DNA from: Omphiscola glabra
Taxonomy: Eukaryota > Mollusca > Gastropoda > Lymnaeidae
DNA: 64,000 nt
Reading direction: 5' to 3'
Assembly (NCBI GenBank): GCA_964017045.1
Contig: OZ024808.1
Location: 5,101,284 to 5,165,283 of the forward strand
This document shows, piece by piece, positions 542 to 61,142 of this stretch; position 1 is the stretch's first letter; the number at the start of each line of letters is the position of its first letter. A program made the translations under genes and the position numbers. The notes beneath the pieces are model-generated. The model worked only from the letters and a program-made list of their open reading frames with translations, was not told the origin of the DNA and did not search any database.

Positions 542-830
542 GTAAGTCATTTTGATTTGGCTACTTAAGGAGAGTTTATTTTTTCAAGTCTTTTTGTCTG
601 TCAGGGCCCAGAAAATATTTAGTCTTTTTGTAGTACTTTTCTGTGCAATGAGAAATTTGGTCTTTTTGAAGTCTTGTTGTCTATCCTATTGGGTGACGGA
701 AAGTGGGTCGCTTTAATGTAATTTTAATCTTACTTAAGGTTAGAGAAAAGTAGATCTTTGACCTTTGAACTTTTTATTGCGAGAAATAAATTTTTTATAC
801 TCGTAATTGAAAAACAGTTTTGTCTTTGAA
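542..830. other. Start of intron 1, no feature seen
   Basis: T-rich, unremarkable sequence after the donor site. It separates exon 1 from the first array, whose units share GTAAGTCAT with the donor. Confidence 0.6.
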
Positions 831-1262
831 TGTAAGTCATGGTACATTTGATTTGTTTAGAGAATAACTGTCTTTAGATTATGAGCTAAGTAAGTCATGG
901 TACATTTGATTTGTTTAGAGAATGCCTGTCTTTAGATTATGTATTAAGTAAGTCATGGTATATTTGATTTGTTTAGAGAATGCCTGTCTTTAGATTATGT
1001 ATTAAGTAAGTCATGGTATATTTGAGCTGTTTAGATATGACTGTCTTTAGATCATGTGCTATGTAAGTCATGGTATATTTGAGCTGTTTAGATATGGCTG
1101 TATTTAGATCATGTGCTTTGTAAGTCATGGTATATTTGAGCTGTTTAGATATGGCTGTCTTTAGATTATGTACTAAGTAAGTCATGGTATATTTGAGCTG
1201 TTTAGATATGGCTGTCTTTAGATTATGTATTAAGTAAGTCTTGGTACATTTGAGTTGTTTGA
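831..1262 (+). repeat. Minisatellite, unit 57-58 bp, about 7.5 copies, each with a GTAAGT
   Basis: GTAAGT recurs at 832, 890, 948, 1006, 1063, 1120, 1177 and 1234. The unit begins GTAAGTCATGGTA and includes TTTGATTTG or TTTGAGCTG. The true exon-1 donor region at 542 also reads GTAAGTCAT followed by TTTGATTTG. Confidence 0.95.
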
Positions 1263-1389
1263 TCCCTTTGATCTCTGTCATCTTCATGGCTCAAATAATC
1301 TTGACCCCTCTATATCATTAAATCTGACGTAACACTGCACTGTTGACAAACAACATTTTAAACTCAAATAACATTTGGAATTAAAAGTA

Positions 1390-1520
1390 TCTAGGTTGGG
1401 CTTCTGTGGGACTTCTGTGGGGCTTGTGTGGGGCTTGTGTTGTTTGGTTTTTTGTTTGTTTGTGTTTGTTTATTTGTGTGGGGTTGTTTGTGTCTTGCTG
1501 TTGTGCTGTTTGTGTTGGGC
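1390..1520. repeat. T/G-rich low-complexity tract
   Basis: Runs of TGTGGGGCTT and TTTGTTTG words without a fixed period. Confidence 0.8.
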
Positions 1521-1560
1521 TTGAGTTATCACAGCCGTAAAATAACTTACGTTGAACGTT

Positions 1561-1612
1561 GACTGTTGACGGGACATTCTCCAGCAGACTGTTGACGGGA
1601 CATTCTCCAGCA
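1561..1612. repeat. 26-bp direct repeat, two perfect copies
   Basis: GACTGTTGACGGGACATTCT followed by CCAGCA occurs twice head to tail. Confidence 0.9.
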
Positions 1613-1619
1613 CAAACCA

Positions 1620-2190
1620 ATGTTAACTTTTTTGCTGTTGTCCCCCGTCCCCCCCCCGGTCCTTAAAACAAACATTCCGGAAATTTGATGACGTCGGTGG
1701 TCCCAGGAATTTTGTGAATGCTTTCGACGGTAATATTCCCGTTCAATACTTTGCTCATTAAGAACTTATTAGTTCCCAATTGGATTTGTGTACATAGTTT
1801 GCGTCATACTTTTGGTGTAAACGTTGCAATTACCGTTCTGTGAATGCAGTCCTTTGGTTGTATGTCTTATCCGGCAAGTGCGCCATGCTGTCACGTGGTC
1901 ATCAATGCGTAGTTTAACTCATCCATAAGCTCACTATATTTAAGTCATATATCAGGGGCGCGTCTTTGCTCATTTTATCTCGCACGTTCATTCAAAATTT
2001 CTCCGCAGGCAGATTGCATACCGGATACTTTCCTTCTATATCTTTATAATGATTGAACTTTAATTTTTAAACGACATTTAATGGCGCTCTGATGACCAAC
2101 TAACAATGATTGCATTGACCATCTGGGGACACTTGTGCATGTTTTTAAAAGCTGAATAACAATCTTTAAAGAAAAAAAAAAGAACTGAAG
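1620..2190. other. Inter-array sequence, nothing recognised
   Basis: A C-run near 1640-1660 and AT-rich sequence. No coding signal or repeat structure was recognised. Confidence 0.5.
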
Positions 2191-2357
2191 TAGAGACTAA
2201 CCGAAAGTTATTTTCTGATTTCGGCTGAAACCAGGCCGCAAGTTAAAAATAACTTTCGGCTGAAACCGAAGCTTAAACCAAGAGCTTAACAAGACTTTCG
2301 ACCGAAACCGAAGCCAAAAACGAAAGAGTTGGATATTTTGAAATTCATTCACGCATA

Positions 2358-2636
2358 CATTCTTTATACATCGAGAAATGATGGGGGGAAGTATCAATAT
2401 TTACATTCTTTATACATCGAGAAATGATGGGGGAAGTATCAATATTTACATTCTTTATACATCGAGAAATGATGGGGGAAGTATCAATATTTACATTCTT
2501 TATACATCGATAAATGATGGGGGGAAGTATCAATATTTACATTCTTTATACATCGAGAAATGATGGAGGAAGTATCAATATTTACATTCTTTATACATCG
2601 AGAAATGATGGGGGAAGTATCAATATTTACATTCTT
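2358..2636 (+). repeat. Minisatellite, unit about 44 bp, about 6 copies, inside repeat R1
   Basis: The unit runs from CATTCTTTATACATCGAGAA through ATGATGGGGGAAGTATCAAT. In the other R1 copy (near 11870-11930, reversed) the matching sequence is present once, so the array arose in this copy. Confidence 0.93.
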
Positions 2637-3189
2637 CTTATACAAAAATGGATGATCGTGACGATTAATCAATCAACATGGAATGACGACTTTGGCTTTT
2701 ACCATTTGAATTAAAAGTTTAAAAAGATTAATTTATTTTGAAGTAGTATGGAAATAGAAAATTTTGACGGAAAAAAATGGGGGGGGGGGGGCAAAATTCA
2801 TGCAAAATAGACCAATGAGTATCGTTAGCTTTAATAACATAATTACAACTCTATCCAGACGTATTTGGTACACATCGTAAGCTTAAGTATGATTGGTATG
2901 GCCCACTAAATGTCCAGACATAAGCCTTAAAGGAACTCATTGTCTGGTTAAACCAAACATTTTCTTTGAAACACGTTGTCTGATTGATCGACGTTTAAAT
3001 GTTTCGCTTATCCGCACTTATCATGTATCAGCTAGTTTACTATATTACCGAGGTCAAGCAAGAGTCGAACGAATTTTGAACTGCGCTTTGTATTATAGTA
3101 CAGTAACAGACCTGGTTACACGGAACTCCCAATGTAGTACAACATAGTCTCAGAATAGTACTTATCCATCTCAAAATCGTACAATCGTG

Positions 3190-3347
3190 CAGTGTTTACC
3201 CGTACCCGTACGCCTGGAAGTACCGGAAGAGTGTGATGGGGGGGTACGCGTTACACCGGAAAATTTTTTAGATTTTAAAAAAATTGCTATTGAAGTATAT
3301 AGAAAATTATAGAGGGTACACAGATATCGAAAGTTTGGGAAACACTG
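3190..3347. mobile_element. hAT-like miniature element with CAGTGTTT inverted ends
   Basis: The left end reads CAGTGTTTACCC, and the complement of the right end reads CAGTGTTTCCCA (11 of 12 match). Five bases, TCGTG, flank both ends (3185-3189 and 3348-3352). No coding capacity. CAGTGTTTCCCA-type ends are familiar in hAT elements, but the expected 8-bp duplication is not intact, so the superfamily is tentative. Confidence 0.6.
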
Positions 3348-3391
3348 TCGTGCTGTAAAAGTAAATGAATAAACACACAGTATAATGTACA

Positions 3392-3392
<1 letters not shown>

Positions 3393-3440
<48 letters not shown>
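3393..3440. repeat. Poly-A run of about 48 bases between direct repeats
   Basis: An uninterrupted A tract. TGTACAC stands immediately before and after it. Confidence 0.9.
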
Positions 3441-3442
<2 letters not shown>

Positions 3443-3872
3443 TACACAATAACTGTTCGCATAGCATGTCTAATAAAGGTCAAAGGTCACTTCTCAACGT
3501 AGATGACTTACGTTTATATATTTACATACAGTGCAATATTTCAAAATTAAAACAAATATAATAAAAATAGTACTATTCTTTTACCTAAGCTTAACTGAAG
3601 CTACATTTTTGGAAATAAAGGACAAATAGGTCATCAATCAGCTGAGAGCAGTTTTCGAAGAAGGTTAGTCATACGATGACAGCAAGATGTCGAGCAGTTG
3701 CGAATATCGGACAGTCTGACTTCTGGTAGATGACCGAAAACCTCAATCATTTTCGGCCGAAACCGAAAATAAACCGAAAGTTAACTTTTCTCTTTCGAAA
3801 CTTATCAAATGGCAACTTTCGGCGCCGAAACCGAAACGAAAGCCGAAATTCAATCGGTCTCCAACTGAAGGA

Positions 3873-4395
3873 AAATCGGTTTCTTTTCTACGCATCATTA
3901 CATTTTCTTAGAAGAGTACTTGCCATTTTATTCCTGAAAGTGGTTTTATAAAACGTACAGTTATTTAAATTGTAAAGAAATTGTTTGACAACTATACTTT
4001 TAATGCTAAAATATGCAATCATGATAGGTTATAGCGGTGCACAGTTGTCTCCCCTCACCGGCTACATATATTGTTAGTCTACTATCGACCGGAAGTTAAA
4101 AAAAAACATTAATTGGCGCACATTTATTGTATTTTCCGCGTCGGTCGGCAATCGAGTGTCAAATGGAGACAGTTGTCCTATTCAATTGAATGCAGTTGTA
4201 TCGTTGTGTCTGCGCCGTGTCTCCTGTCTGTTGACATTTCCGTCTCGCCACATGACCAACTAATTAATGCAGCTGATAGCGTGGGACATTTCAAGGGCGA
4301 TAAGTTGCACGACTCTGTCTACCCATGGTTCTCAAATAGTCTGACATGACACTACTCTTTTATTGCGCCTGCTGTGCCGTTAATCCTAACCTGAA
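3873..4395. other. Inter-repeat sequence, nothing recognised
   Basis: AT-rich at first, then mixed. No gene, RNA or repeat structure was recognised. Confidence 0.5.
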
Positions 4396-4590
4396 TTTTT
4401 ATGCCCCTGATGGGGTCGTATGTTGATCATGGCCAATGAGGGGGTCGTATGTTAATAATGGTCAATGAGGGGGCCGTATGTTGATCATGATCAATGAGGG
4501 GGTAGTATGTTGATCATGATCAATGAGGGGGTAGTATGTTGATCATGGTCATTGAGTGGGGCATATGTTGATCATGGTCAATGATTTTTA
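4395..4590. repeat. Minisatellite, unit about 32 bp, about 6 copies
   Basis: The unit contains GGGGGTCGTATGTTGATCAT and GGTCAATGA. Confidence 0.92.
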
Positions 4591-4654
4591 CCGATATCAA
4601 TGAAATTATGTCTGGCATCAACTGCGACCCAAACGTTGCACTCCATCCAATAAC

Positions 4655-5815
4655 CGTGATATTAGCAATAACCATGATATTAGCAATAACCGTGATATTA
4701 GCAATAACCATGAGATTAGCAATAACCGGGATTTTAGCTATAACCATAATATTAGCAATAACCATGAGATTAGCAATAACCGTGATATTAGCAATAACCA
4801 TGAGATTAGCAATAACCATGATATTAGCAATAACCATGAGATTAGCGATAACCATGATATTAGCAATAACCATGATATTAGCAATAACCATGATATTAGC
4901 AATAACCATGATATTAGCAATAACCATGATATTAGCAATAACCATGATATTAGCAATAACCGTGATATTAGCAATAACCATGAGATTAGCAATAACCATG
5001 ATATTAGCAATAACCATGAGATTAGCGATAACCATGATATTAGCAATAACCATGATATTAGCAATAACCATGATATTAGCAATAACCGTGATATTAGCAA
5101 TAACCATGATATTAGCAATGACCATGATATAGCAATAACCATGATATTAGCAATAACCATGATATTGGCAATAACCATGATATAAGCAATAACCATGATA
5201 TTAGCAATAACCGTGATATTAGCAATAACCGTGATATTAGCAATAACCGTGATATTAGCAATAACCATGCGATAAGCGATAACCGTGATTTTAGCAATAA
5301 CCATGATATTAGCAATAACCATGATATTAGCAATAACCATGATATTAGCAATAACCATGATATTAGCAATGACCATGATATTAACAAAAGCCATGAGATT
5401 AGCAAAAATTATGATATTAGCCATAACTGTGATATTAGCAATAACCATGATATTTGCAATAACCATGATGTTAGCACTAACCATGATATTAGCAATAACC
5501 ATGATATTAGCAATGACCATGATATTAGCAAAAGCCATGACATTAGCAAAAACCACGATATTAGCAATAACCATGATATTAGCAATAACCATGATATTAG
5601 CAATAACCGAGATATAAGCAATAACCATGATATTAGCAATAACCGTTATATTAGCAATAATCATGATATTAACAATAACCATGAGATTAGCAATGACCAT
5701 GATAGTAGCAAAAGCCATGAGATTAGCAAGAACCATGAGATTGGCTACAACCATAAGATTAGCAACAACCATGAGATTAGCACAGCAACAATGAGATTAG
5801 CAACAATCATGAGAT
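4655..5815. repeat. Minisatellite, unit 18 bp, about 64 copies
   Basis: The unit is ATAACCATGATATTAGCA with frequent CATGAG and CGTGAT variants. Copies diverge toward the right end. The period is a multiple of three, so long stop-free frames exist on both strands. They encode only the repeat and are not taken as genes. Confidence 0.97.
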
Positions 5816-5861
5816 TGCGTAGAACCAAGCTTGGATTAGTAATTCGGCTCAGTGCTACACT

Positions 5862-6450
5862 AAGCCATTGGATTAGCTGGTGTGACGTGTTCCAATATCA
5901 GGTCAGGTGCTAACTAAGCCATTGGAATAGCTGGTATGACGTGTCCCAATATCAGGTCAGGTGCTAACTAAGCCATTGGAAATGCTGGTATGACGTGTCC
6001 CAATATCAGGTCAGGTGCTAACTATAACTAAGCCATTGGATTAGCTGGTATGACGTGTTCCAATATCAGGTCAGGTGCTAACTAAGCCATTGGTGTAGCT
6101 GGTATGACGTGTTCCAATATCAGGTCAGGTGCTAACTAAGCCATTGGAATAGCTGGTATGAGTTATCCCAATATCAGGTCAGGTGCTAACTAAGCCATTG
6201 GAATAGCTGGTATGACGTGTCCCAATATCAGGTCAGGTGCTAATTAAGCCATTGGAATAGCTGGTATGAAGGTCCCAATATCAGGTCAGGAGCTAACTAA
6301 GCCATTGGAATAGCTGGTATGACGTGTCCCAATATCAGGTCAGGTGCTAACTAAGCCATTGTAATAGCTGGTATGACATGTCCCAATATCAGGTCAGGTG
6401 CTAACTAAGCCAGTGGAATAGCTGGTATGACGAGTCCCAATATCAAGTCA
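5862..6450. repeat. Minisatellite, unit about 54 bp, 11 copies
   Basis: The unit includes TAAGCCATTGGAATAGCTGG and CCCAATATCAGGTCAGGTGC. Confidence 0.96.
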
Positions 6451-6495
6451 GCCAGTAGATTGAACATCAAATGTCCAGAACACTCCTTGCGCAGA

Positions 6496-7038
6496 TTCCC
6501 TTCTCCCCGACAATGGGTCCCATCTCCCCGACAATGGGTCCCATCTCCCCGACAATGAGTCCCTTCTCCCCGACAACGGGTACCATCTCCACGACAATGA
6601 GTCCCTTCTCCCCGACAATGAGTCCCATCTCCCCGACAATGGATCCCATCTCCCCGACAATTAGTCCCTTCTCCCCGACAATGAGTCCCATCTGCCCGAC
6701 AATGAGTCCCTTCTTCCCGACAATGAGTCCCTTCTCCCCGACAATGGGTCCCTTCTCCCCGACAATGGGTCCCTTCTCCCCGACAATGGGTCCCTTCGTC
6801 CCGACAATGGGTCCCTTCTCCCCGACAATGGGTCCCTTCACCCCGACAATGAGTCCCTTCTCCCCGACAATGAGTCCCATCTCCCCGACAATGGGTCCCA
6901 TCTCCCCGACAATGAGTCCCTTCTTCCCGACAATGAGTCCCTTCTCCCCGACAATGGGTCGCTTCTCCCCGACAATGGGTCCCTTCTCCCCGACAATGGG
7001 TCCCTTCTCCCCGACAATGGGTCCCTTCTCCCCGACAA
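6496..7038. repeat. Minisatellite, unit 21 bp, about 26 copies
   Basis: The unit carries CTTCTCCCCGACAATGGGTC. Variants alternate CATCTCC/CTTCTCC and GGGTCC/GAGTCC. Strand asymmetry is strong (pyrimidine-rich plus strand). Confidence 0.97.
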
Positions 7039-7129
7039 AGCTATGACCAGATAGTCGAAAGGTCTAACAGGTAGAACCATTTTATCCACTGCCCCAGAAC
7101 TTAAACAGGAAATGACCCGCCAAACAATG

Positions 7130-7200
7130 GCAGCTCAATTTAATTGACAAAACATGACTTCAAGTAAAGCACTTTATAAGAATCCCAATTAGTGCTAACT
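7130..7200 (+). repeat. Dispersed repeat R2, short copy
   Basis: The stretch from TTGACAAAACATGACTTCAA through CCCAATTAGTGCTAACTTC matches parts of the blocks at 13312-14235 and 31203-31895. It directly follows the 21-bp array. Confidence 0.6.
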
Positions 7201-10532: not shown

Positions 10533-12112
10533 ACTAGAGACCGACCGAATTTCGGCTTTGGTTTCGGCACCGAAAGTAGCCACTTGATCAATTTCGGCCT
10601 AGTTTCGGTTTCGAACAGAAAAGTTAACTTTCGGTTTTATTTTGGTTTAGGCCGAAGAAGACTGATGTTTTCGGTCATTTACCAGAAGTCAGACCTGTCT
10701 CTAGGCCGGCAATCTGATGTTTATTATTGCTCGACGCCTTGCTGTCATCACAGCTGCATGATGACCTACATGTACTTTATTTCCAAAAAATTTGAATTTC
10801 AATTAGGCCTAGGCAAATGTAAATAGTTTTTTTGGAAGAAAAGCTAATGGAATGGTAATATTTATATCATTTTATTTGTTTTAATTTTTTTCAAATATAA
10901 AATTTGGAACCCTAGGATTATTCAACTCCTTCATTTGTGATATTCATTTTGATTTATCATTAGTATGCTTATCAACGTTGTCATAGGCAATGGTGAATAA
11001 TATCGAATAATACTAGGAAAAGGTAATATATACCTTATTATTATTCACCTTTGCCTATAACAACGTTGATAAGCATAATAATGATAAATCAAAATGAATA
11101 TTACAAATGAAGGAGTTGAATAATCCTAGGTTGTTTTTTTTAAATTAGGTAAACTTAAGCTTTTTCAATTCACTCATTTCTTGAAATCCACCATTATCAT
11201 GCTCAAAAACATTGTTATTAACAAGTGTGTACATGCATCACTGGTTTGTATTATAATTTTGTAGTTGGCCTACTGCAGACCTGTTTACTTTTACATTTTT
11301 GGCGACCATAGAGGTCTTTTGCGATTCTCCATCGAGACCCGTCAAGAGAAATTACTATTTTAAGATACCCGGTTAAAAATATAATAATTTCACGCACCAA
11401 GGGGGGTGAGGGAGGTTGGTCGCCGAACGAAATAATTACGTCACCAGCACAGAAAGACTAATGTGCTGGTACTAGGCTAAATATTAATACAGCGATATCT
11501 TGCCAGCTATTTATGAAAACACAAAGCATTAGTTTGACGATAACCGAGAAACATTGTGATGATATTTGTATAGCCTTAATAACTGATATTTAGGTGACAA
11601 TTGGCTTAGTTAGAGCCACAATAATTATTATAGTTATCAGTTCTATTCTAGGTTGTAATTATAGTATACAAGCAAATGGCACTCTAGAGTCTATTGTGCA
11701 TGAATTCCACCCCCCCCCCCCCCAAAAACCCGGTCCAAATTTTCTCTTATCATACTACTTTAAAAACATTTTAAAAAGAAATTTAAATTGCTTATTAATC
11801 AAAATGGTAAAAGCCAAAGTTTCCATTCGATTTTTATTGATTAATATTCACGATGATCTCATTTTTTATAAAAAGAATGTAGATATTTATACTTCCCCCC
11901 CATCATTTTTTGATGCATGCAGAATATATGCATGAACGAATTGTGAAATATCAAAAGATATTTCGGGTTGGGTTCGGCTTCGGTTTCGGCCGAAAGTGTC
12001 TTTAAGCTTTTGGTGTCGGCTTCGGTTTAGGCAGAAAGTAATTTTTTACTTTCGGCCTGGTTTCGGTTTCGGTCGAAATCAGAAAATCGCTTTCGGTCGT
12101 CTTTCAAGTGTA
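10533..12112 (-). mobile_element. Dispersed repeat R1, copy b (reverse of 2192-3872)
   Basis: The right part of R1 comes first (10533-10910: TTTCGGC-rich end, TTAACTTTCGGTTTTATTTT). A foldback element is inserted at 10911-11130. Diverged internal sequence follows, then the left part (11700-12112) with the single-copy counterpart of the 44-bp unit. Shared landmarks include GACCGACCGAATTTCGGC at the end and AATTCATGCA near the internal C/G-run. No long reading frame. Confidence 0.6.
10911..11130. mobile_element. Foldback (palindromic) element, about 92-bp arms
   Basis: The left arm begins CCTAGGATTATTCAACTCCT. The complement of the right arm begins identically and stays about 95% matched for some 92 bases, around a loop of about 35 bases. 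It interrupts repeat R1. No target duplication is clear. Confidence 0.8.
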
Positions 12113-12595: not shown

Positions 12596-12599
12596 GTAT

Positions 12600-23495: not shown

Positions 23496-24115
23496 AGTAT
23501 TATTTAAATATCGAAGGTCGGACATTTTCCCCAGCATTGTGTTTCGGTATATTAAGTGAAGCTTTTTGCTCCGATTGTCCCAGCCCAGCTATCATTTTAG
23601 ACGTCATCATATTGTCTAATTCATCGTCCTTGGGAACCTACAACCCTCCCCCACTCCGTATCAAACGCAGGTGATCCTCCAGCTAGGTGTGCATGACCTG
23701 ACATGTGCACATGCTCAATTTTTTTTATTTCCACAGCGCGCAACAGCCCCTGTGAGTTACAATGCACGCGCCGGCTTGCGACTAAGTACATAATCACACC
23801 AAGTGCTAGACGCTCAAAACAACAAGCAGCATCGCGGTCTGGGGAGCATTTGCCCCACAGCGCTGAAGGGTGGGACGCGGCCCGCATGGAGTGGTTAGTC
23901 CGGGTCTGAAATGGATAGTATTGTTTCAACAACGGAGTGTTAGACAAGTAAGGAGTCGAACCACCGGCGGCTCTAAACTTATGAACTCGAGATACAGGAA
24001 AGAAATAAAGATTTGGGGAAACATTGGTTTAATGAAATGGTGTGTTTGGGGTATATTTGATTTCTACCAGAGGTTCTACATTTACACCGAAGATGATGAG
24101 TGAATGGTTCGGACT
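23496..24115. other. Inter-array sequence, nothing recognised
   Basis: Comparatively GC-rich, unique-looking sequence (23600-23960). No splice-consistent exon or homology was recognised. Confidence 0.45.
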
Positions 24116-24116
24116 G

Positions 24117-24845
24117 AAGTTGTCAGGGCAGAAGTTCTCAGGACAGAAGTTCTCAGAACATAAGTTCTCGGGACATAAGTTTTCAGGACAGAAGTTCTCA
24201 GGACAGAAGTTCTCGGGACATAAGTTATCAGGACAGAAGTTCTCAGGACAGAAGTTCTCAGGACAGAAGTTCTCAGGACAGAAGTTCTCAGGACAGAAGT
24301 TCTCAGGACAGAAGTTCTCAGGACAGAAGTTCTCAGGATAGAGGTTCTCAGGACAGAGGTTCTCAGGACAGAAGTTGTCAGGGCACAAGTTCTCAGGACA
24401 GAAGTTCTCAGGACAGAAGTTCTCAGGACAGAAGTTCTCAGGACAGAAGTTCTCAGGACAGAAGTTCTCGGGACATAAGTTCTCAGGACAGAAGTTCTCA
24501 GGACAGAAGTTCTCAGGACAGAAGTTCTCAGGACAGAAGTTCTCAGGACAGAAGTTCTCAGGACAGAAGTTCTCAGGATAGAGGTTCTCAGGACAGAGGT
24601 TCTCAGGACAGAAGTTGTCAGGGCACAAGTTCTCAGGACAGAAGTTCTCAGGACAGAAGTTCTCAGGACAGAAGTTCTCAGGACAGAAGTTCTCAGGACA
24701 GAAGTTCTCAGGACAGAAGTTCTCAGGACAGAAGTTCTCAGGACAGAAGTTCTCAGGACAGAGGTTCTCAGGACAGAAGTTGTCAGGACAGAAGTTCTCA
24801 GGACAGAAATTCTCAGGACAGAAGTTCTCAGGACATAGGTTCTCA
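24117..24845. repeat. Minisatellite, unit 15 bp, about 48 copies, with a 240-bp higher-order repeat
   Basis: The unit is GGACAGAAGTTCTCA. The marker variant GGATAGAGGTTCTCAGGACA followed by GAAGTTGTCAGGGCACAAG occurs at about 24337 and again 240 bases later, so a 16-unit block was duplicated. Confidence 0.97.
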
Positions 24846-24920
24846 GACGATGTCTTGGATGGAGACTTGTCACAGACATTATGATAAGTCAGGGCTTCTA
24901 AAGTTTTTGAAGTTGGTTAT

Positions 24921-29779: not shown

Positions 29780-29908
29780 CAGTGGGCCCCGCACTTTATT
29801 TTCTAATACAAAATCTTAATTTTTCACTTATTATCCTTATCCCTAAGCGGACTGGGCCCGGCGCAATCCGTTTCGCATAGGGCCCCGCAATCGTTAGGGC
29901 TGGCCCTG
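29780..29908 (-). mobile_element. Truncated copy of the CAGGGCCG hAT-type miniature element
   Basis: It matches, in reverse orientation, the element at 43974-44159 (shared words GTGGGCCCCGCACTTT, TTTTCTAATACAAAA, CAATCCGTTTCGCATAGGGC). It keeps the GGCCCTG end at 29908 and lacks the other end. No target duplication. Confidence 0.75.
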
Positions 29909-29910: not shown

Positions 29911-30110
29911 TGCAGCAATGCAGCTGTTTTAGCTGTTTGGGAGTTCTGGGAATGATACAAGACAGCAATGCAGCTGTTTTAGCTGTTTGGGAGTTCTGGG
30001 AATGATACAAGACAGCAATGAAGATGTTTTAGCTGTTTGGGAGTTCTGGGAATGATACAAGACAGCAATGAAGATGTTTTAGCTGTTCGGGAGTTCTGGG
30101 AATGATATTA
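29911..30110. repeat. Minisatellite, unit 50 bp, 4 copies
   Basis: The unit includes GACAGCAATGCAGCTGTTTT and GGGAGTTCTGGGAATGATAC. It starts next to the end of the truncated miniature element. Confidence 0.96.
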
Positions 30111-31895: not shown

Positions 31896-31915
31896 TTTTT
31901 GTAGACGATCTAAGT

Positions 31916-32340
31916 CAGGGGGATCAAACTCGCGGCCCGCGGGTCATTTGAGGCCCGCAAAACGATATTTGCAAAGGTTAGTGTTAATGCGGTTCGCTCT
32001 TTTTCTCCATTTTCATATCTCACATCAATGACGGGGACTCGTAGCACACGTTCAAAGAATACTGCAAGGGTAGGGTGTGGAAGAGGACGTTGCTCTACGC
32101 TGCATTATCCATCAGCAGGTCCTTTGCAGCAAATGTCTCAAGTTTGACAATGTGATGTCTGACTTTGAGAAATGCATCAACCGTAACAGACCCAGGGGCT
32201 TGAGCATCGGCAGTTCTGCACCTTTTTAGAGGAAATAGAGTCAGAATATGAGGATGTTATCCACTTTACCGAGGTACTTTGGCTTAGTAGAGGAAACGTC
32301 CTGATCATGTTTTTTTGAGGTGAGAAAAGTGCTGAGTAAC
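31916..32340 (+). pseudogene. hAT transposon remnant with broken transposase fragment
   Basis: A hAT-type end (CAGGGGGATCAAACTCGCGG, followed by a CCCGCGGGTC motif) stands at 31916. From about 32087 three plus-strand frames in succession read like the catalytic half of GTF2IRD2/EPM2AIP1-like hAT transposases. First comes ALRCIIHQQVLCSKCLKFDN, then FLEEIESEYEDVIHFTEVLW with LSRGNVL, then FFEVRKVLSN. The H-x-E-V-x-W-L-S-R-G block is typical of that family. At least two frameshifts (near 32200 and in the T-run near 32316) and missing upstream and downstream parts show it is dead. The far end is not found, and a small tandem repeat begins at about 32372. Confidence 0.75.
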
Positions 32341-33027: not shown

Positions 33028-33204
33028 CTTATGCAGATCGTGTTACCTAAGCATCAACAGATCGTGTTACCTAAGCATCAACAGATCGTTTTACCTAAGC
33101 ATCAACAGATCGTGTTACCTAAGCATCAACAGATCGTGTTACCTAAGCATCAACAGATCATGTTACCTAAGCATCAACAGATCGTGTTACCTAAGCATCA
33201 ACAG
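33028..33204. repeat. Minisatellite, unit 24 bp, about 7 copies
   Basis: The unit is ATCGTGTTACCTAAGCATCA plus ACAG. Confidence 0.97.
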
Positions 33205-35265: not shown

Positions 35266-35353
35266 CATACACCGATTCTACTCTTGTACATTTCCTTAAC
35301 TCACCCTTGCACTATGTGCCAGATCATTAAAACTTAAGCTGCATGTGGTAGAG

Positions 35354-35529
35354 CAGTGGTTCTCAACCTTTCTAATGCCGCGACCCTTTAATACAGTTCT
35401 TCATGTTGTGACGACCCCCTACCACAAAATTGTTTTCGTTGATCTTTATAACCCTAGAGCATAAGTGTTTTCAGATGGTCTTAGGCGACCCCTATGAAGG
35501 GGTCGCGACCGACAGGTTGAGAACCGCTG
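35354..35529 (-). mobile_element. SPIN-like hAT miniature element, copy 1
   Basis: The ends are CAGTGGTTCTCAACC and, on the other strand, CAGCGGTTCTCAACC. The inside has GGTCGCGACC and GGCGACCCCTATGAAGGGG, the pattern of the non-autonomous SPIN hAT family known from vertebrates. It is flanked by TGGTAGAG (35346-35353) and TGTTAGAG (35530-35537), an 8-bp duplication with one mismatch. Inverted relative to the copy at 63086. Confidence 0.82.
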
Positions 35530-35654
35530 TGTTAGAGAGTTCTACTTCAATTATGCAGAATGACGCAATGCTCTTTTGATCATTTGTATTTCCTTGTTTT
35601 AAAGGTGGGAGAAATAACATTGAGATTGAAGTTAAAACACTATTCTGAAATAAC

Positions 35655-43864: not shown

Positions 43865-44234
43865 ACCGCTCCCTAAATTATGGATATCCATAATATAGAA
43901 GAGGATATCTTCTTATTCTTCTTCTATATGTGAAGGGCCCACGATCAATTTATTGATCATTCTGGCTCCTATGCAGGGCCGACCCTAACAATTGCGGGGC
44001 CCTATGCGAAACGGATTGCGCAGGGCCCAGTCTGGGTAGGAATACGGATAATAAGTGAAAATTAAGGTTTTGTATTAGAAAATAAATTTGGGGTGGACCC
44101 TATGAAAGTGCGGGGCCCACTGCGGCCGCATCGGTTGCAGTGGCCTAAGGCCGGCCCTGCTCCTATGCATGTAGAGGGGATTTGCAATGTTTCTGTGCCT
44201 GGTGTTGATGAGGATATTTCACTGGTTGCAACAG
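43865..44234 (-). mobile_element. 3' untranslated region of the non-LTR element, interrupted
   Basis: Outside the inserted miniature element, the words AGAATGATCAAT, CGTGGGCCCTT and TATAGAAGAAGA recur in the same orientation and order at 58985-59045, where only this tail is present. Confidence 0.7.
43974..44159. mobile_element. hAT-type miniature element with perfect 8-bp target duplication
   Basis: The ends are CAGGGCCGACC and, reversed, CAGGGCCGGCC. The flanks are CTCCTATG on both sides (43966-43973 and 44160-44167). It is 186 bp and non-coding. It has landed in the 3' untranslated part of the non-LTR retrotransposon remnant, so it is younger than that remnant. Confidence 0.9.
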
Positions 44235-45345
44235 TTACTTAATAAGGGTATCATGCACTGGGGTTGGAAGGCCTGAGGCAATAGACGCAAATGAGTCAAG
44301 TGTTGTCGCCTCAACTGTTCCCATTGGAAGCTTGTTCCAGTCCCTGATTGTCTTGGGCAGGAATGAGCAGTTCTTATACTGGCTTCTCGCTGGTATGAGC
44401 CGGAACTGCCTGTCATGGCCTCGACGCTGTCTATGGGGGAGAGGGACGAGCTTCTGTTTAATGCCAGAGCAGTGGACAAGCCAATTATTTATCTGGTAAA
44501 TCATGGAGAGCCTGGATAGTCGTCGTCGTTCCTCCAATAGTGACAAGCCCGGTGTTTTCAGCATGCTGCCAACACTAGAGGTATTTCTGTAGCGGTTCAG
44601 GACAAAGCGTGCTGCCCATCGCTGTACTGCCTCCAGCCTGTCGATGCTCTTCTGGGTAAATGGGTCCCAGACTGAAGATGCATAAACTAAAAGAGGCCGG
44701 ACAAAAGCTTTATAGGCTCTTTCTTTCACACTGGAGTTGCTGATCTTTAGATTACGCCTTACGAACCCCATGGTCTTGTTTGCCTTTTTGCACACATAGT
44801 TAATAGACTTGTCCCAGCGGACTCTCTTTGTATGGTAACACCCAGGTACGTTACGGAGGAAACCGACTCAATTAAATGGCCATGCAATTCATAGTGTTAC
44901 AGTAGAGGAGTACAACTTCTAGAGACTGATAGTTTCTGGCACTTTGCAGAATGAAATTCCATGTCCCAGCTCATCTCCCACTCAGCTAAGCGACTGAGAT
45001 CCTGTTGAAGGTGGTCCTGGTCAGATCTGTTGGCGATCACCCTATACGCCGCCGTGTCATCTGCTAACAGTCTTGCGTGGGATGTTTCATCTGCTAACAG
45101 TCTTGCGTGGGATGTCAGTTTATCTGGAGTAGGTCATAGATGTATGCTAGGAACAAACAGGGGCCTAACACCGAGCCCTGGGGGACCCCCGACTTAACGC
45201 CGACAAAGGAGGAGCTTGTATCGTCCACCACTACTGCCTGGCATCGGTTGCAGAGGAAGCATAGTTCAATGAAAGGTCTTCAGGATAATCCCTCAAGCTA
45301 AACTCAGTAATATCATTACACCGTCGGTTCCCACCAGTTAATTGA
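44235..45345 (-). pseudogene. Non-LTR retrotransposon (Jockey/CR1-like) reverse transcriptase remnant
   Basis: Read on the minus strand from about 45345 leftward: FIELCFLCNRCQAVVVDDTS, the SGVPQGSVLGP motif (about 45195-45165), AYIYDL, then LLADDTAAYR with the A-D-D catalytic pair (45056-45064). The intact C-terminal 186 codons follow (44795-44235), starting at MCKKANKTMGFVRRNL and including KAFVRPLLVYASSVWDP, the thumb-like region usual in this clade. Two frameshifts are visible, near 45125-45135 and near 44825-44835, and the 5' part is missing, as in 5'-truncated copies. A 30-bp in-frame tandem duplication copies SHARLLAD next to the catalytic box (45057-45116). The 3' untranslated part continues to about 43865 across a later miniature-element insertion. 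Confidence 0.88.
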
Positions 45346-48732: not shown

Positions 48733-49203
48733 GCCCGTGAATCTCCTAAAACATAATGGTTACTTTAAAATGTGATGAAGACCAAAATAAAAATGCCCCC
48801 CACCCCGCCACACATTAAATTTTTTTTGCCCCGTACAAGCATCAGATTTAATATGTAATGTATGACTTGCTGTGGAAAAAAAGGGGGGGGGGGGCTAAAC
48901 AGCTAGTTAACTTGTTACTTCTGCAACACCTGGCTCCAACTGTGAACTACAATTCAACTACTGCAACGTGTCGTGTTGAAAGGTCATGACACGAGGTCGG
49001 CACGAGACCAAACGCGTGCGGGGCTATCAAAAGATACGATGACGTCACTTGAGTCACAATGGCTCTGTACAATAAACAAAGCGAGCGAGCTTCTTCTCTA
49101 TTTTGGTCTCATAACGAGCTTTCACCAGTGCAACAACTCTTCCAGGAATCCGAGCTATGTCCAACTTATTTTAATGCTCTAGTGAGATCTTCTTGTGCAG
49201 TTT
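48733..49203. other. Inter-array sequence, nothing recognised
   Basis: A G-run at about 48885-48894. No gene was recognised. Confidence 0.5.
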
Positions 49204-52134
49204 GGGACCGTGCATACAGAGCCATTATGATGCAAAGATCATGTTTGGGTCCGAACATACAGAGCCATAATGATGCAAAGATCATGTTTGGGACCGTGCA
49301 TACAGAGCCATATGATGCAAAGATCATGTTTGGGTCCGAGCATACAGAGCCATTATGATGCAAAGATCATATTTTTGGACGCGCATACAGATCCATAATG
49401 ATGCAAATATCATGTTTGGGGTCATGTATACAGAGCCATAATGATGCAAAGATCATGTTAAGACCCGAGCATACAGAGCCATTTTGATGTTTAAAAAACA
49501 TATTATTGGCCGAGCATACAGAGCCATTATGATGCAAAGATCATGTTTTGGGTCGTACACACAGAGCCATAATGATGCAAAGATCATGTTTGGGATCGTA
49601 CACACAGAGCCATAATGATGCAAAGATCATGTTTGGGGTCGTACACACAGAGCCATAATGATGCAAAGATCATGTTTTGGGTCGTACAAACAGAGCCATT
49701 ATGATGCAAAGATCATGTTTGGGGTCGTACACACAGAGCCCTAATGATGCAAAGATCATGTTTGGGGTCGTGCATACAGAGCCGTAATGATTCAAAGATC
49801 ATGTTTTGGGTCGTACACACAGAGCCATAATGATGCAAAGATCATGTTTGGGTCCGAGCGTACAGAGCCATAATGATGCAAAGATCATGTTTGGGGTCGT
49901 ACAAACAGAGCCATTATGATGCAAAGATCATGTTTGGGGTCGTACACACAGAGCCATAATGATGCAAAGATCATGTTTTGGGTCGTACAAACAGAGCCAT
50001 TATGATGCAAAGATCATGTTTGGGGTCGTACACACAGAGCCCTAATGATGCAAAGATCATGTTTGGGGTCGTGCATACAGAGCCGTAATGATGCAAAGAT
50101 CATGTTTGGGGTCGTGCATACAGAGCCGTAATGATGCAAAGATCATGTTTTGGGTCGTACACACAGAGCCATAATGATGCAAAGATCATGTTTGGGGTCG
50201 TGCATACAGAGCCGTAATGATGCAAAGATCATGTTTTGGGTCGTACACACAGAGCCATAATGATGCAAAGATCATGTTTGGGTCCGAGCGTACAGAGCCA
50301 TGATGATGCAAAGATCATATTTTTGGACGCGCATACAAGTCCATAATGATGCAAAGATCATGTTTGGGGTCATGTATACAGAGCCGTAATTATGCAAAGA
50401 TCATGTTTGGGTCCGAGCATACAGAGCCATTTTAATGTAAAGATCATATTTTTGGTCGAGTATACAGAGCCATAATGATGCAAATATCATGTTTGGGGTC
50501 ATGTATACAGAGCCATAATGATGCAAAGATCATGTTAGGACCCGAGCATACAGAGCCATTTTGATGTAAAAAACGTATTTTTGGCCGAGCATACAGAGCC
50601 ATTATGATGCAAATATTATGTTAGGACCCGAGCATACAGAGCCATTTTGATGTAAAAAACGTATTTTTGGCCGAGCATACAGAGCCATTATGATGCAAAG
50701 ATCATGTTTGGGGTCGTACACACAGATCCATAATGATGCAAAGATCATGTTTAGGGTCGTACACACAGAGCCATAATGATGCAAAGATCATGTTTGGGGT
50801 CGTACACACATAGCCATTATGATGCAAAGATCATGTTTGGGGTCGTACAAACAGAGCCATTATGATGCAAAGATCATGTTTGGGGTCGTACACACAGAGC
50901 CATAATGATGCAAAGATCATGTTTGGGGTCGTGCATACAGAGCCGTAATGATGCAAAGATCATGTTTGGGGTCGTGCATACAGAGCCGTAATGATGCAAA
51001 GATCATGTTTTGGGTCGTACACACAGAGCCATAATGATGCAAAGATCATGTTTGGGGTCGTGCATACAGAGCCGTAATGATGCAAAGATCATGTTTTGGG
51101 TCGTACACACAGAGCCATAATGATGCAAAGATCATGTTTGGGTCCGAGCGTACAGAGCCATGATGATGCAAAGATCATATTTTTGGACGCGCATACAAGT
51201 CCATAATGATGCAAAGATCATGTTTGGGGTCATGTATACAGAGCCGTAATTATGCAAAGATCATGTTTGGGTCCGAGCATACAGAGCCATTTTAATGTAA
51301 AGATCATATTTTTGGTCGAGTATACAGAGCCATAATGATGCAAATATCATGTTTGGGGTCATGTATACAGAGCCATAATGATGCAAAGATCATGTTAGGA
51401 CCCGAGCATACAGAGCCATTTTGATGTAAAAAACGTATTTTTGGCCGAGCATACAGAGCCATTATGATGCAAATATTATGTTAGGACCCGAGCATACAGA
51501 GCCATTTTGATGTAAAAAACGTATTTTTGGCCGAGCATACAGAGCCATTATGATGCAAAGATCATGTTTGGGGTCGTACACACAGATCCATAATGATGCA
51601 AAGATCATGTTTAGGGTCGTACACACAGAGCCATAATGATGCAAAGATCATGTTTGGGGTCGTACACACATAGCCATTATGATGCAAAGATCATGTTTGG
51701 GGTCGTACAAACAGAGCCATTATGATGCAAAGATCATGTTTGGGGTCGTACACACAGAGCCATAATGATGCAAAGATCATGTTTGGGGTCGTACAAACAG
51801 AGCCATAATGATGCAAAGATCAATTTTGGGGTCGTACAAACAGAGCCATAATGATGCAAAGATCATGTTTGGGTCCGAGCGTACAGAGCCATAATGATGC
51901 AAAGATCATGTTTGGGGTCGTACACACAGAGCCATAATGATGCAAAGATCATGTTTGGGGTCGTACAAACAGAGCCATTATGATGCAAAGATCATGTTTG
52001 GGGTCGTACACACAGAGCCATAATGATGCAAAGATCATGTTTGGGGTCGTACACACAGAGCCATAATGATGCAAAGATCATGTTTGGGGTCGTACACACA
52101 GAGCCATAATGATGCAAAGATCATGTTTGGGGTC
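49204..52134. repeat. Largest minisatellite: unit about 43 bp, about 68 copies, with 860-bp higher-order repeat
   Basis: The unit includes ATACAGAGCCATAATGATGC and AAAGATCATGTTTGGGGTCG. Several unit types exist (CGTACACA, CGAGCATA, CATGTATA, CGCGCATA). The block 49981-50932 reappears almost base for base at 50841-51792 (offset 860, exactly 20 units; one mismatch noticed at 50042/50902). Confidence 0.98.
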
Positions 52135-55774: not shown

Positions 55775-56745
55775 GTGTCTGACAGTAGAATCTCGTATGT
55801 CTGACAGTAGAATCTCGTATGTCTAACAGTAGAATCTCGTATGTCTGACAGTAGGATCTCGTATGTCTGACAGTAGGATCTCGTATGTCTGACAGTAGGA
55901 TCTCGTATGTCTGACAGTAGGATCTCGTATGTCTGACATTAGGATCTCGTATGTCTGACAGTAGGACCTGGTATGTCTGACAGTAGGATTTGTAATGTTT
56001 GACAGTAGGATCTCGTATGTCTGACAGTAGGACCTGGTATGTCTCACAGTAGGACCTGGTATGTCTGACAGTAGGATCTCGTATGTCTGACAGTAGGACC
56101 TGGTATGTCTGACAATATGATATTGTATGTCTGGCAGTAGGACCGGGTATGTCTGACAGTAGAATCTCGTATGTCTGACAGTAGAATCTCGTATGTCTGA
56201 CAGTAGGATTTCGTATGTCTGACAGTAGAATCTCGTATGTCTGACAGTAGGATCTCGTATGTCTGACAGTAGGATCTCGTATGTCTGACAGTAGGATCTG
56301 GTATGTCTGACAGTAGGATCTGCTATGTCTGACAGTAGGACCTGATATGTCTGACAGTAGGATCTGTTATGTCTGACAGTAGGACCTGGTATGTCTGACA
56401 GTTGGACCTGGTATGTCTGACAGTAGGATTTGTAATGTCTGACAGTAGGACCTGGTATGTCTCACAGTAGGACCTCGTGTGTCTGACAGTAGGATCTGTT
56501 ATGTCTGACAGTAGGACTTGGTATGTCTGACAGTAGGACCTGGTATGTCTGACAGTAGGACCTGGTATGTCTGACAGTAGGATCTGTTATGTCTGACAGT
56601 AGGACCTGGTATGTCTGACAGTAGGAGATGGTATGTCTGACAGTAGGAGATGGTATGTCTGACAGTAGGATCTCGTATGTTTGACAGTAGGACCTGGTAT
56701 GTCTGACAGTCGGACCTGGTATGTCTGACAGTAGGACCTGGTGTA
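55775..56745. repeat. Minisatellite, unit 22 bp, about 44 copies
   Basis: The unit is ATGTCTGACAGTAGGATCTC plus GT, with ACCTGGT variants. Confidence 0.98.
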
Positions 56746-56925
56746 GTCCTGAAGTTATGCTCAGCTGAATGTATGATGTTTGTATGTAACATCTTTATAT
56801 TATGTAACATGTATCCCTTTGTATGTAATATGTCCAACATATATCGTACATGTAACATATGCCTGCATGTATCTATACGTAACTGCACATGTATCACTCA
56901 TCTGTCTTTACCATCCATTTGTGTT

Positions 56926-57004
56926 TACATTTCCTGTATATCAATTCAGATGGCCAGACGGTAGTTTACATTTCCTGTATATCAACTCAGATGGCCAGAC
57001 AGTA
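56926..57004. repeat. Direct repeat of about 41 bp, two copies
   Basis: TTTACATTTCCTGTATATCA followed by a segment with CAGATGGCCAGAC occurs twice. Confidence 0.9.
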
Positions 57005-57065
57005 ATTGTGTTTGAGACCGGGGAGTAACATCTCTTATCTGACCGGCATTACCTGATAGTCTTTA

Positions 57066-57200
57066 TATGCACACAGATACACACATGCTCACACACATAC
57101 TCACAAATGTTCAGACATACTTACACGCATACACACACACATGCTCACACATATTCTCACTCACATGCTCACACACAAACTCACACACGTGTTCACACAT
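57066..57200. repeat. CA-rich low-complexity tract
   Basis: Words ACACATGCTCACAC and ACTCACA. Confidence 0.88.
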
Positions 57201-57411
57201 ATCTCAAGTACATCTCACAGGGGCACTGCATTGGCCATCTTTTAAAAAAGTTTTGTACGATTCATACATGTTTGGTAAGGGTGTGTACTTCATATGCAAT
57301 CATATGCTAAATTATATGAAACAGTGTACTACACATTTGCAGTTCCCATGAAAAACGAAGATTTTTGTTGGAAGAAAAAAAAATACCTTGAATTCATATT
57401 TTCGAGTACAA

Positions 57412-57625
57412 CTCAGTCCTAGAATTTGCATTAAAGATGGGATCTAAATGTTCCACAGTCCTAGAATTGGCCCTAAAGATGGGATCTAAATGTTCCACAG
57501 TCCTAGAATTGGCACTAAAGATGGGATCTAAATATTCCACAGTCCTAGAATTGGTCCTAAAGATGGGATCTAAATGTTCCATAGTCTTAGAATTGGCCCA
57601 AAAGATGGGATCTAAATGTTCCATT
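57412..57625. repeat. Minisatellite, unit 42 bp, 5 copies
   Basis: The unit includes GTCCTAGAATTGGCCCTAAA and GATGGGATCTAAATGTTCCA. Confidence 0.96.
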
Positions 57626-57824
57626 AATAGAATAACTAAGCCTGCGGTGATTTTTATAATGACTTTCAGTTTTTGGTTGCCGTCCGAGAAGATTGGACTG
57701 GCTTATTTAGATATCGCTATTGCGTAACGGGGAATTTTGGCGTAACTCAAGCAGTGGTGTCTAAGTGGTGTCTGAGAAAACATCACTAAAATCAGAGACA
57801 TTTTTTGCTTTGTTTGACCATGCA

Positions 57825-58290
57825 GGACAGTGGTGCATTCATTAGGACAATCGAAGTAAGTTATGTAGGTCAGTGGTACATTCATTAGGACGATCGAAGT
57901 AAGTTATGTAGGTCAGAGGTGCATTCACTGGGACGATCGAAGTAAGTTATATAGGTAATTGATGCATTCATTAGGATGATCGAAGTAAGTTATGTAGGTC
58001 AATGGTGCATTCACTAGGACGATCGAAATAATTTATGTAGGTCAGTGGTGCATTCATTAGGACGATCGAAGTAAGTTATGTAGGTCAGTGGTGCATTCAT
58101 TAGGACGATCGAAGTAAGTTATGTAGGTCAGTGGTGCATTCATTAGGACGATTGAAGTAAGTTATGTAGGTCATTAATACATTCATTGGGATGATCGAAG
58201 TGAGTTATGTAGGTCAGTGGTGCATTCATTAGGACGATCGAAGTAAGTTATGTAGGTCAGAGGTGCATTCATTAGAAGGTTTGAAGTAGT
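57825..58290. repeat. Minisatellite, unit 43 bp, about 11 copies
   Basis: The unit includes GTCAGTGGTGCATTCATTAG and GACGATCGAAGTAAGTTATG. Confidence 0.96.
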
Positions 58291-58612
58291 CCATGTCCTG
58301 CTAAACCTGCGGTTAAAAATAAATTCATTTATTCAATGCAATTACTTTGTAAAATTGATTGTTTGCATGTAAGGAAGGAGTTCTTGATCTTCTTATGACT
58401 GGCAAAAAGGTCTGTAGAACAAACTATTTAAGAACCCCTATTGTAGACAAGAGGGTAGATTACTGTTTCGGAATATAACTATGTTTCCCGGGATCCAATT
58501 CTCTCTCTCATTTTCCCGAACAAATAGTGTAATTTGGATAAGTAGCATTTTAGAATTTGTAACAAGGTAATTTTCATCAAGCCCTATCATTTTTGTTGAG
58601 TGCCGCAACTGA

Positions 58613-58742
58613 ACATGTCCTTGATCCAGCACTGAACATGCCCTTGAGCCGTCACTGAACATGTCCTTGAGCCGCCACTGAACATGTCCTTGAGCTGCCA
58701 CTGAACATGTCCTTGAGCTGCCACTGAACATGTCCTTGAGCG
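58613..58742. repeat. Minisatellite, unit about 23 bp, about 6 copies
   Basis: The unit is CACTGAACATGTCCTTGAGC plus CGC or TGC. Confidence 0.95.
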
Positions 58743-58984
58743 ATGCGAATTCGGCTCACATCAGAGCCCGTAATAGCTCCTTAATTAACACAAGAGACTT
58801 AACCCACCAGCTGCCCTGAGCAGGGGAGATTAGCCGATGATATTTAGCTTAGTGAACAGCCGGTCAGGAAATGTGCACGGCTACAGAGGCGGAGGAATGA
58901 CCTGTGGGTGGTCTTGTCATTAATATTTGTTTTATATTGATATTTGTTGTAAAGCTGGGTTGATATCAAGTTGTATATCTGATA

Positions 58985-59045
58985 CATAGGAGCCAGAATG
59001 ATCAATACATATCGTGGGCCCTTAATATATAGAAGAAGATATGAT
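58985..59045 (+). mobile_element. Tail-only copy of the non-LTR retrotransposon 3' end
   Basis: It matches the reverse of 43895-43970 in order (CATAGGAGCCAGAATGATCA, CGTGGGCCCTTAA, TATAGAAGAAGATAT). It represents an extreme 5'-truncated insertion. Confidence 0.65.
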
Positions 59046-59063
59046 ACCGAAGCGATCGTGAAA

Positions 59064-59215
59064 TGTCACTGGTCTCTTGTCACTGGTCCCCCGTCACTGG
59101 TCCACTGTCACTGGTCCCTTGTCATTGGTCCCTTGTCACTGGTCTCTTGTCACTGGTCCCTTGTCACTGGTCCTTTGTCACTGGTCCCTTATCCCTTGTC
59201 ACTGGTCCCTTGCTG
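59064..59215. repeat. Minisatellite, unit 12 bp, about 13 copies
   Basis: The unit is CACTGGTCCCTT with TGT linker (TTGTCACTGGTC). Confidence 0.95.
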
Positions 59216-59302
59216 ATGTCGTATCTCAGTGATTTGATTTGTCTCTGATTTGTGCATACCACTAGCACATGTACCAAGGTATCGAAGTGAACAAAGGTGG
59301 AA

Positions 59303-59745
59303 TGATGTGTATGTGTATAACAAGATATAGTTGGCTATGATGTATAACAAGAGATAGTTGGCTATGATGTATTACAAGAAATAGTTGGCTAAGATGTATT
59401 ACAAGAAATAGTTGGCTATGATGTATTACAAGAAATAGTTGGCTATGATGTATTACAAGAAATAGTTGGCTATGATGTATTACAAGAAATAGTTGGCTAT
59501 GATGTATTACAAGAAATAGTTGGCTATGATGTATTACAAGAGATAGATGGCTAAGATGTATTACAAGAGATAGTTGGCTATGATGTATTACAAGAGATAG
59601 TTGGCTATGATGTATTACAAGAAATAGATGGCTATGATGTATTACAAGAGATAGATGGCTATGATGTATAACAAGAAATAGATGGCTATGATGTATTACA
59701 AGAGATAGATGGCTATGATGTATAACAAGAAATAGATTGCTATTT
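59303..59745. repeat. Minisatellite, unit 27 bp, about 16 copies
   Basis: The unit is GATGTATTACAAGAAATAGT plus TGGCTAT. Confidence 0.97.
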
Positions 59746-59811
59746 ACTTTCTGTGGTTTAGCCAGGACGAGAAATAATAGGATTGCAAACTTATTTTATG
59801 GTCAGTCGCGT

Positions 59812-60395
59812 TTAAGAACAGATTTCACGGGGACCAATAAGAAGTGTAACAACAGATGTCACGGGGAACAATAATAGGTGTAACAACACATTTCACGGGG
59901 ACCAATAAGAGGTGTAACAACACATTTCACGGGGACCAATAATAGGTGTAACAACACATTTCACGGGGACCAATAAGAGGTGTAACAACACATTTCACGG
60001 GGACCAATAAGAGGTGTAAAACACATTTCACGGGGACCAATAAGAGGTGTAACAACACATTTCACGGGGACCAATAAGAGGTGTAACAACACATTTCACG
60101 GGGACCAATAAGAGGTGTAACAACAGATGTCACGGGGACCAATAAGAGGTGTAACAACACATTTCACGGGGACCAATAAGAGGTGTAAAACACATTTCAC
60201 GGGGACCAATAAGAGGTGTAACAACACATTTCACGGGGACCAATAAGAGGTGTAACAACACATTTCACGGGGACCAATAAGAGGTGTAAAACGCATTTCA
60301 CGGGGACCAATAAGAGGTGTAACAACACATTTCACGGGGACCAATAAGAGGTGTAACAACACATTTCACGGGGACCAATAAGAGGTGTAACAACA
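59812..60395. repeat. Minisatellite, unit 33-34 bp, about 17 copies
   Basis: The unit includes GTAACAACACATTTCACGGG and GACCAATAAGAG. Confidence 0.97.
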
Positions 60396-61085
60396 CATGA
60401 GTGCTGTTTTATCAGGCATCTCATGAGTGCTGTTTTACCTAGCATCTCATGAATGCTGTTTTACCTAGCATAGCATGAGTGCTGTTTTACCTAGCATAGC
60501 ATGAGTGCTGTTTTACCTAGCATAGCATGAGTGCTGTTTTACCTAGCATCTCATGAGTGCTGTTTTACCTAGCATAGCATGAGTGCTGTTTTACCTAGCA
60601 TCTCATGAGTGCTGTTTTACCTAGCATAGCATGAGTGCTGTTTTACCTAGCATAGCATGAGTGCTGTTTTACCTAGCATCTCATGAGTGCTGTTTTACCT
60701 AGCATAGCATGAGTGCTGTTTTACCTAGCATAGCATGAGTGCTGTTTTACCTAGCATAGCATGAGTGCTGTTTTACCTGGCATAGCATGAGTGGTGTTTT
60801 ACCAGGCATCTCATGAGTGCTGTTTTACCTAGCATAGCATGAGTGCTGTTTTACCTAGCATAGCATGAGTGCTGTTTTACCTGGCATAGCATGAGTGCTG
60901 TTTTACCTAGCATAGCATGAGTGCTGTTTTACCTAGCATAACATGAGTGCTGTTTTACCTGGCATAGCATGAGTGGTGTTTTACCAGGCATCTCATGAGT
61001 GCTGTTTTACCTAGCATAGCATGAGTGCTGTTTTACCTAGCATAGCATGAGTGCTGTTTTACCTGGCATAGCATGAGGGCTATTT
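60391..61085 (+). repeat. Minisatellite, unit 26 bp, about 27 copies, next to exon 2
   Basis: The unit is ATGAGTGCTGTTTTACCTAG plus CATAGC or CATCTC. Each unit carries TGTTTTACCTAG, which looks like a 3' splice site, and the array stops about 57 bases before the real acceptor. Confidence 0.97.
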
Positions 61086-61142
61086 TAAGAGTCACTTGTC
61101 GTCCACTGCTTTGTCTTATGTTTAATTTCTCTTTGGTTTCAG

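Follow-up and report, generated by a model that had tools for sequence, protein, structure and literature searches.

Nearly half of the 60.6-kb first intron of a snail fatty-acid-binding-protein gene consists of unrelated minisatellites, many of them apparently born in place

Results

Gene structure at the locus

The window analysed here, a stretch of 64,000 nucleotides from the snail Omphiscola glabra, contains exons 1 to 3 of a fatty-acid-binding-protein (FABP) gene, whose fourth exon lies beyond the window, and a first intron nearly half of which is a chain of tandem arrays. All results concern this one window of one species. FABP genes have four exons, with a phase-1 first intron after about 25 codons and a phase-0 second intron, and exons 1 to 3 and both intron phases of the window agree with this layout. 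Exon 1 ends at TTGG/GTAAGT, exon 2 lies between the acceptor TTTCAG/GTCTCT and the sequence GTAAGA, and exon 3 is preceded by CCCTAG (Table 1). The first-pass annotation had proposed a 60.6-kb intron separating exons 1 and 2 joined in correct phase, and the same coordinates were recovered here for a GT-AG intron of 60,601 bp. The window contains no N bases.

The spliced product of 123 amino acids had solved FABPs as its best PDB match by phmmer (E 3.1e-10), and 14 homologues with E≤0.001, several of them named fatty acid-binding protein, were found among 22 candidates from a large protein database, with identities of 66-98%. The PDB match and these homologues place the product among the FABPs, its Pfam lipocalin/FABP match being weak (E 0.009, below the curated cut-off). 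The closest homologue (P0001, 98% identity, 138 amino acids, longest contig 942 bp) is continuous over the exon 1-exon 2 junction, and shows exons 1 to 4 together in a probable transcript of the same species or a close relative, a retrocopy being possible. The next homologues from annotated snails were those of Physella acuta (89% identity) and Biomphalaria pfeifferi (88%), and homologues of several snails are likewise continuous across exons 1 and 2. When the 14 homologues, and the exon-1 pieces of those in which exon 1 is present, were compared with the window by tblastn, exon 1 was located at 466-543, and exons 2 and 3 matched P0001 at 100% and 97% identity, respectively. This search gave no credible rival exon 1 within the window, the lowest E elsewhere being 0.07.

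Two homologues annotated as partial, P0011 of Biomphalaria glabrata and P0013 of Plakobranchus ocellatus, start precisely with the first complete codon of exon 2. One reading is that a distant exon 1 was perhaps missed there too, which hints that annotation of related genomes fails over long first introns. The frame that precedes the canonical start (286-465) codes for a hydrophobic stretch resembling a signal peptide and for a Ser/Thr-rich linker; a similar N-terminal extension is present in B. pfeifferi P0003, and Physella P0002, an isoform X2, starts at the canonical Met. Judged from these sequences, a secreted FABP isoform from an upstream start is possible.

Amount, unit size and placement of the arrays

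Tandem Repeats Finder assigned 28,722 of the 60,600 bp at 542-61141 (47.4%) to tandem arrays, and other scorings gave 46.5% and 51.4%; five dinucleotide-shuffled controls contained 0-56 bp of tandem repeat. Coverage of intron 2 was similar (1,260 of 2,543 bp in three blocks). In intron 1 we counted 91 distinct arrays, so that the first-pass figure of about 80 minisatellites was slightly low. The arrays are of minisatellite type, with units repeated head to tail, since 88 of the 91 have periods of at least 10 bp within the range of about 10-100 bp; 74 of these 88 have at least three copies. In the intron arrays with period ≥9, units of 9-76 bp (median 24 bp) form arrays with a median length of 203 bp; the median copy number for arrays of period ≥9 is 7.1. 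Over the 60 kb, the density is about 1.5 distinct arrays per kb. Short-unit repeats were scarce, with 24 rows and 781 bp for periods of 6 bp or less even at a score of 30, versus 172 rows for longer periods. Divergence of the copies from their consensus ranged from 0 to 17%, with a median of 5.5% (93 arrays, whole window), and this spread suggests that births are continuing.

The placement of 89 arrays was close to random with mild clustering. Gaps of 5 bp or less were found in 7 of 88 cases vs 1.3 expected (P 0.0004), and weaker clustering was seen for gaps of up to 30 bp (12 vs 7.1, P 0.044) and up to 100 bp (28 vs 21.4, P 0.044). Several of the tightest pairs are one array split by the program, and abutment is not claimed as a rule of array birth. 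The remaining sequence showed a modest excess of older arrays, which was left out of the 47.4%: 35 rows and 811 bp vs 3-9 rows and 60-191 bp in five shuffles, and under laxer scoring 114 rows and 3,427 bp vs 26-43 rows and 784-1,194 bp. A strand bias of the units was not significant by GC skew (Wilcoxon P 0.11), although a weak bias is possible, with 53 arrays positive and 29 negative.

Relatedness of the units and an array within a dispersed element

Comparison of the units of 93 arrays (period ≥9, whole window) gave only 4 of 4,278 pairs scoring at least 24, the maximum among shuffled units being 22. Two of these four pairs are neighbouring arrays and the other two are marginal. The earlier statement that the units share no common sequence thus holds, and the spread of one satellite family, in which a few related units would make up many arrays, is rejected within the window.

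Furthermore, a dispersed element is present in the intron as two copies in opposite orientation, about 75-78% identical. A segment that occurs once in one copy is repeated 6.2 times as a 45-bp unit in the other, and therefore this array arose in place. Identical two-copy seeds were also observed (Table 1). Unit unrelatedness, this single before/after pair and the phase-coherent ends of part of the arrays (see below) favour independent births over satellite spread, as the first-pass annotation had suggested; many arrays were apparently born in place by small local duplications.

Phase of the array ends

The end phase r of an array was defined as its length along the consensus, taken modulo the unit. 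Inserted blocks should have arbitrary ends, a homology-free duplication should end on whole units, and a duplication between short repeats should leave an overhang of the length of the repeat. Among 81 arrays of the whole window with period ≥14, 40 ended within 3 bp of whole units (|r|≤3) vs 21.8 expected, and the excess sits at r of 0 to +3 (26 vs 12.5). Six rows were then dropped, five for arrays that were compound or split and one for the duplication in exon 1, which left 75 arrays. Four scorings of these gave 37, 33, 29 and 32 arrays with |r|≤3 vs 20.1 expected (P 0.00005, 0.00045, 0.014 and 0.0015, respectively). For arrays with period ≥20 and at least four copies, 17 of 48 fell at 0 to +3 and 2 of 48 at +4 to +7, vs 6.2 expected in each case. 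In-phase ends are thus shown by between about one third and one half of the tested arrays.

Longer overhangs were not enriched. Counts at +4 to +7 in the four scorings were 5, 6, 6 and 14 of 75 vs 11.5, with no significant excess, and overhangs of 6-8 bp and 9-11 bp numbered 4 and 7 of the 81 arrays, vs 9.3 expected from a uniform distribution for each. The 5-10 bp overhang that slippage would leave was not enriched across the arrays; one array, the 45-bp array within the dispersed element, has an overhang of 9 bp.

Simulated births were run through the same alignment, with three replicates per setting and copies capped at 15. In the best fit, births at 2 bp of microhomology made up about 35% (33% when 3 bp was assumed) and the remainder was uniform; simulated homologies of 5 and 8 bp received zero weight. 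This fit surpassed a uniform distribution alone by 8.8 log units and a mixture of zero homology and uniform by 5.9. The whole-unit ends with 0-3 bp of microhomology expected of end joining were therefore seen as an excess over all arrays, about 35% by the fit, and not array by array. In addition, eight short duplications lie outside the larger arrays of the whole window, vs 0-1 in 20 shuffles.

Growth of the arrays

Some arrays have grown by multi-unit blocks. Block repetition was detected at P≤0.05 in 6 of 43 arrays with at least eight copies, with an offset of 16 units at 24111-24846 and of 20 units in the largest array.

Table 1. Positions of the gene parts and selected arrays in the window
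Feature	Position	Strand	Remarks
FABP exon 1 reading frame	286-541	+	canonical start 466; 541 followed by donor GTAAGT; in-frame extension ahead of the start, 286-465
Intron 1	542-61142	+	60,601 bp; phase 1; 47% tandem arrays
FABP exon 2	61143-61321	+	179 nt
Intron 2	61322-63864	+	2,543 bp; phase 0; 49.5% tandem arrays
FABP exon 3, part with P0001 match	63865-63975	+	tblastn; exon start at 63865
In-frame duplication in exon 1 upstream frame, 27 bp x 2.1	411-466	+	
Dispersed element copy with 45-bp array (after state)	2200-2849	+	
45-bp x 6.2 array inside this copy	2356-2636	+	9-bp overhang
Sister element copy, segment once (before state)	11652-12097	-	
Seed, 26 bp x 2.0	1561-1612	+	identical copies
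Seed, 30 bp x 2.0	45057-45115	+	identical copies
15-bp x 49 array	24111-24846	+	16-unit block repetition
24-bp x 7.1 array	33034-33204	+	3-bp overhang; ends in phase
Largest array, 43 bp x 68	49200-52134	+	20-unit block offset
Two abutting unrelated arrays, 34-bp and 26-bp units	59813-61087	+	3-bp overlap; end about 55 bp before splice acceptor

Other dispersed elements and candidate features

Inverted copies of one element, about 80% identical, were found at 35349-35540 and 63075-63285; we take this element to resemble SPIN hAT transposons, known for horizontal transfer. Another dispersed element has inverted copies at 29780-29908 and 43974-44122 (90% identical over 114 bp), and the array at 29913 starts four bases past the first of them. 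A further inverted pair, at 3606-3861 and 10537-10789, is rich in CCGAAA-type motifs, which are also present in the element at 2200-2849. A transposase suspected at 31900-32330 had no Pfam match in three frames, and window scans of limited scope found no tRNA or Rfam families.

The splice donor region (542-570) and the unit of the first array (832-1260) have GTAAGTCAT and TTTGATTTG in common, with a gap of 6 bp, and the array repeats the donor-like GTAAGT. Derivation of this array from the splice donor had a P value of 0.038 by shuffles, which is too weak to claim.

Discussion

The account that we favour, with somewhat better than even confidence, is that many arrays began as duplications made in place by end joining, that the ends of others were blurred by deletion or mutation, that slippage started some, and that amplification proceeded by whole units. 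The intron would then have grown through a long series of independent local events, each duplicating a segment of about 10-80 bp where it stood. Duplication would most likely result from repair of a staggered break, both overhangs being filled in and the ends then joined at 0-3 bp of microhomology. Unequal exchange, slippage or conversion would multiply the resulting two-copy seed by whole units, in some cases by blocks of several units, and point mutations would build up alongside. For the FABP gene itself, we infer no function of the arrays beyond a long primary transcript.

Several observations weigh against this account. About 61-65% of the arrays fit a uniform phase, and therefore for most of them the birth mark was lost or never existed. 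The excess of in-phase ends was smaller in the two strict scorings (29 and 32 of 75), the count of 14 of 75 at +4 to +7 came from one lax scoring, and arrays with more than 6% divergence gave only 7 of 30 at 0 to +3 vs 5.4 expected. Zero homology plus uniform fitted better than uniform alone by 2.9 log units, and blunt births may account for some arrays. The eight short duplications differ from their period by 2, 0, -3, -1, 5, 4, 4 and -4 bp in run length, so that some are not tight. The sole before/after pair, with its 9-bp overhang, is more slippage-like. About two of the six cases of block repetition are expected by chance, and first and last copies were no more diverged than middle copies in 55 arrays, so that edge ageing is rejected. 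Furthermore, according to the accessible text of a study in mouse embryonic stem cells (PMC8355091), junction microhomology marks a minor, theta-mediated route and not the main route of non-homologous end joining.

Replication slippage between pre-existing direct repeats of 5-10 bp flanking a segment, followed by growth through slippage, is the second of two older start models named in work on human transposon-derived minisatellites (PMC3389668, accessible text). The overhang of the 45-bp array agrees with it, as do those of 8-11 bp in several further arrays, but the deficit of 6-8 and 9-11 bp overhangs, the zero weight of 5 and 8 bp homology in the fit and the fact that none of the scorings gave a significant excess at +4 to +7 make slippage an unlikely general origin. 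Arrays might also have been made elsewhere, as rolling-circle copies of extrachromosomal circles or within repeat-carrying mobile elements, and inserted whole. Insertion predicts the missing phase memory of the 61-65%; it does not predict the excess of in-phase ends, nor an array inside an element whose sister copy holds one unit, and, apart from neighbours and the two marginal pairs, no unit recurs in two separate arrays of the window. We regard this origin as quite improbable.

It has to be noted that a single gene was seen, and that its intron is very long in comparison with the mean of 4,250 bp given in the accessible text of the genome report for the slug Deroceras laeve (PMC12506671). 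A peculiarity of intron 1 alone, such as a fragile site or relaxed selection, would fit these facts. On the other hand, intron 2 is equally dense in arrays, and in the slug a further 28.39% of the genome, on top of interspersed repeats, was assigned to tandem repeats by Tandem Repeats Finder (PMC12506671). For both reasons the array-forming process is probably genome-wide, and restriction to intron 1 is distinctly unlikely. Even less credit can be given to an assembly artefact, or to exon 1 being part of another transcript: although P0001 could in principle be a retrocopy product, the copies within arrays differ from one another, the window has no N bases, homologues of several snails run through exons 1 and 2, and tblastn offered no alternative exon 1 in the window. 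We consider this reading very improbable.

Minisatellites, transposon-derived arrays and small tandem duplications are already known; what is new here is the extreme density of arrays together with a testable birth signature. The arrays resemble known minisatellites, with units of 10-100 bp, in unit size, in having unit variants and in the multi-unit blocks of some, and differ in their density along 60 kb, in the scarcity of short-unit repeats and in sharing no unit. The D. laeve genome is likewise rich in tandem repeats, whereas unit sizes, a comparison of units, an analysis of introns and a mechanism of birth are absent from the accessible text of its report. The mouse study (PMC8355091, accessible text) describes small tandem duplications generated by fill-in and non-homologous end joining at breaks with complementary 3' overhangs, and states that, among short insertions in the human genome, such duplications are the most frequent. 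These are head-to-tail, shorter than 100 bp and without long flanking homology, as in the window, but they are single duplications in cultured mammalian cells, whereas here seeds have grown to as many as 68 copies and end joining is read from sequence. For human transposon-derived minisatellites, postulated mechanisms explain only 6% of cases according to the accessible text (PMC3389668); a segment of a dispersed element turned into an array here too, as shown for one array of the window. A literature search of partial coverage found no report of such arrays, of a unit-by-unit analysis or of a birth signature in snails or gastropod introns, and the words tandem and intron do not occur in the Bradybaena paper.

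The origin of minisatellites is recognised as an unsolved problem, and about ninety unrelated arrays of varied divergence allow statistical tests of start mechanisms by an end-phase approach applicable to any genome. We tentatively suggest, as a possibility we hold at rather less than even chance, that a snail lineage has an unusually high germline rate of small tandem duplications by end joining, with seeds routinely amplified, and that the birth of minisatellites, and not just transposition, is among the leading causes by which its introns and genome expand. Should the process act genome-wide, masking of interspersed repeats alone would miss this local duplication, as the accessible text of the D. 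laeve report remarks for that genome (PMC12506671), and much of the genome size and intron length of snails would be due to it.

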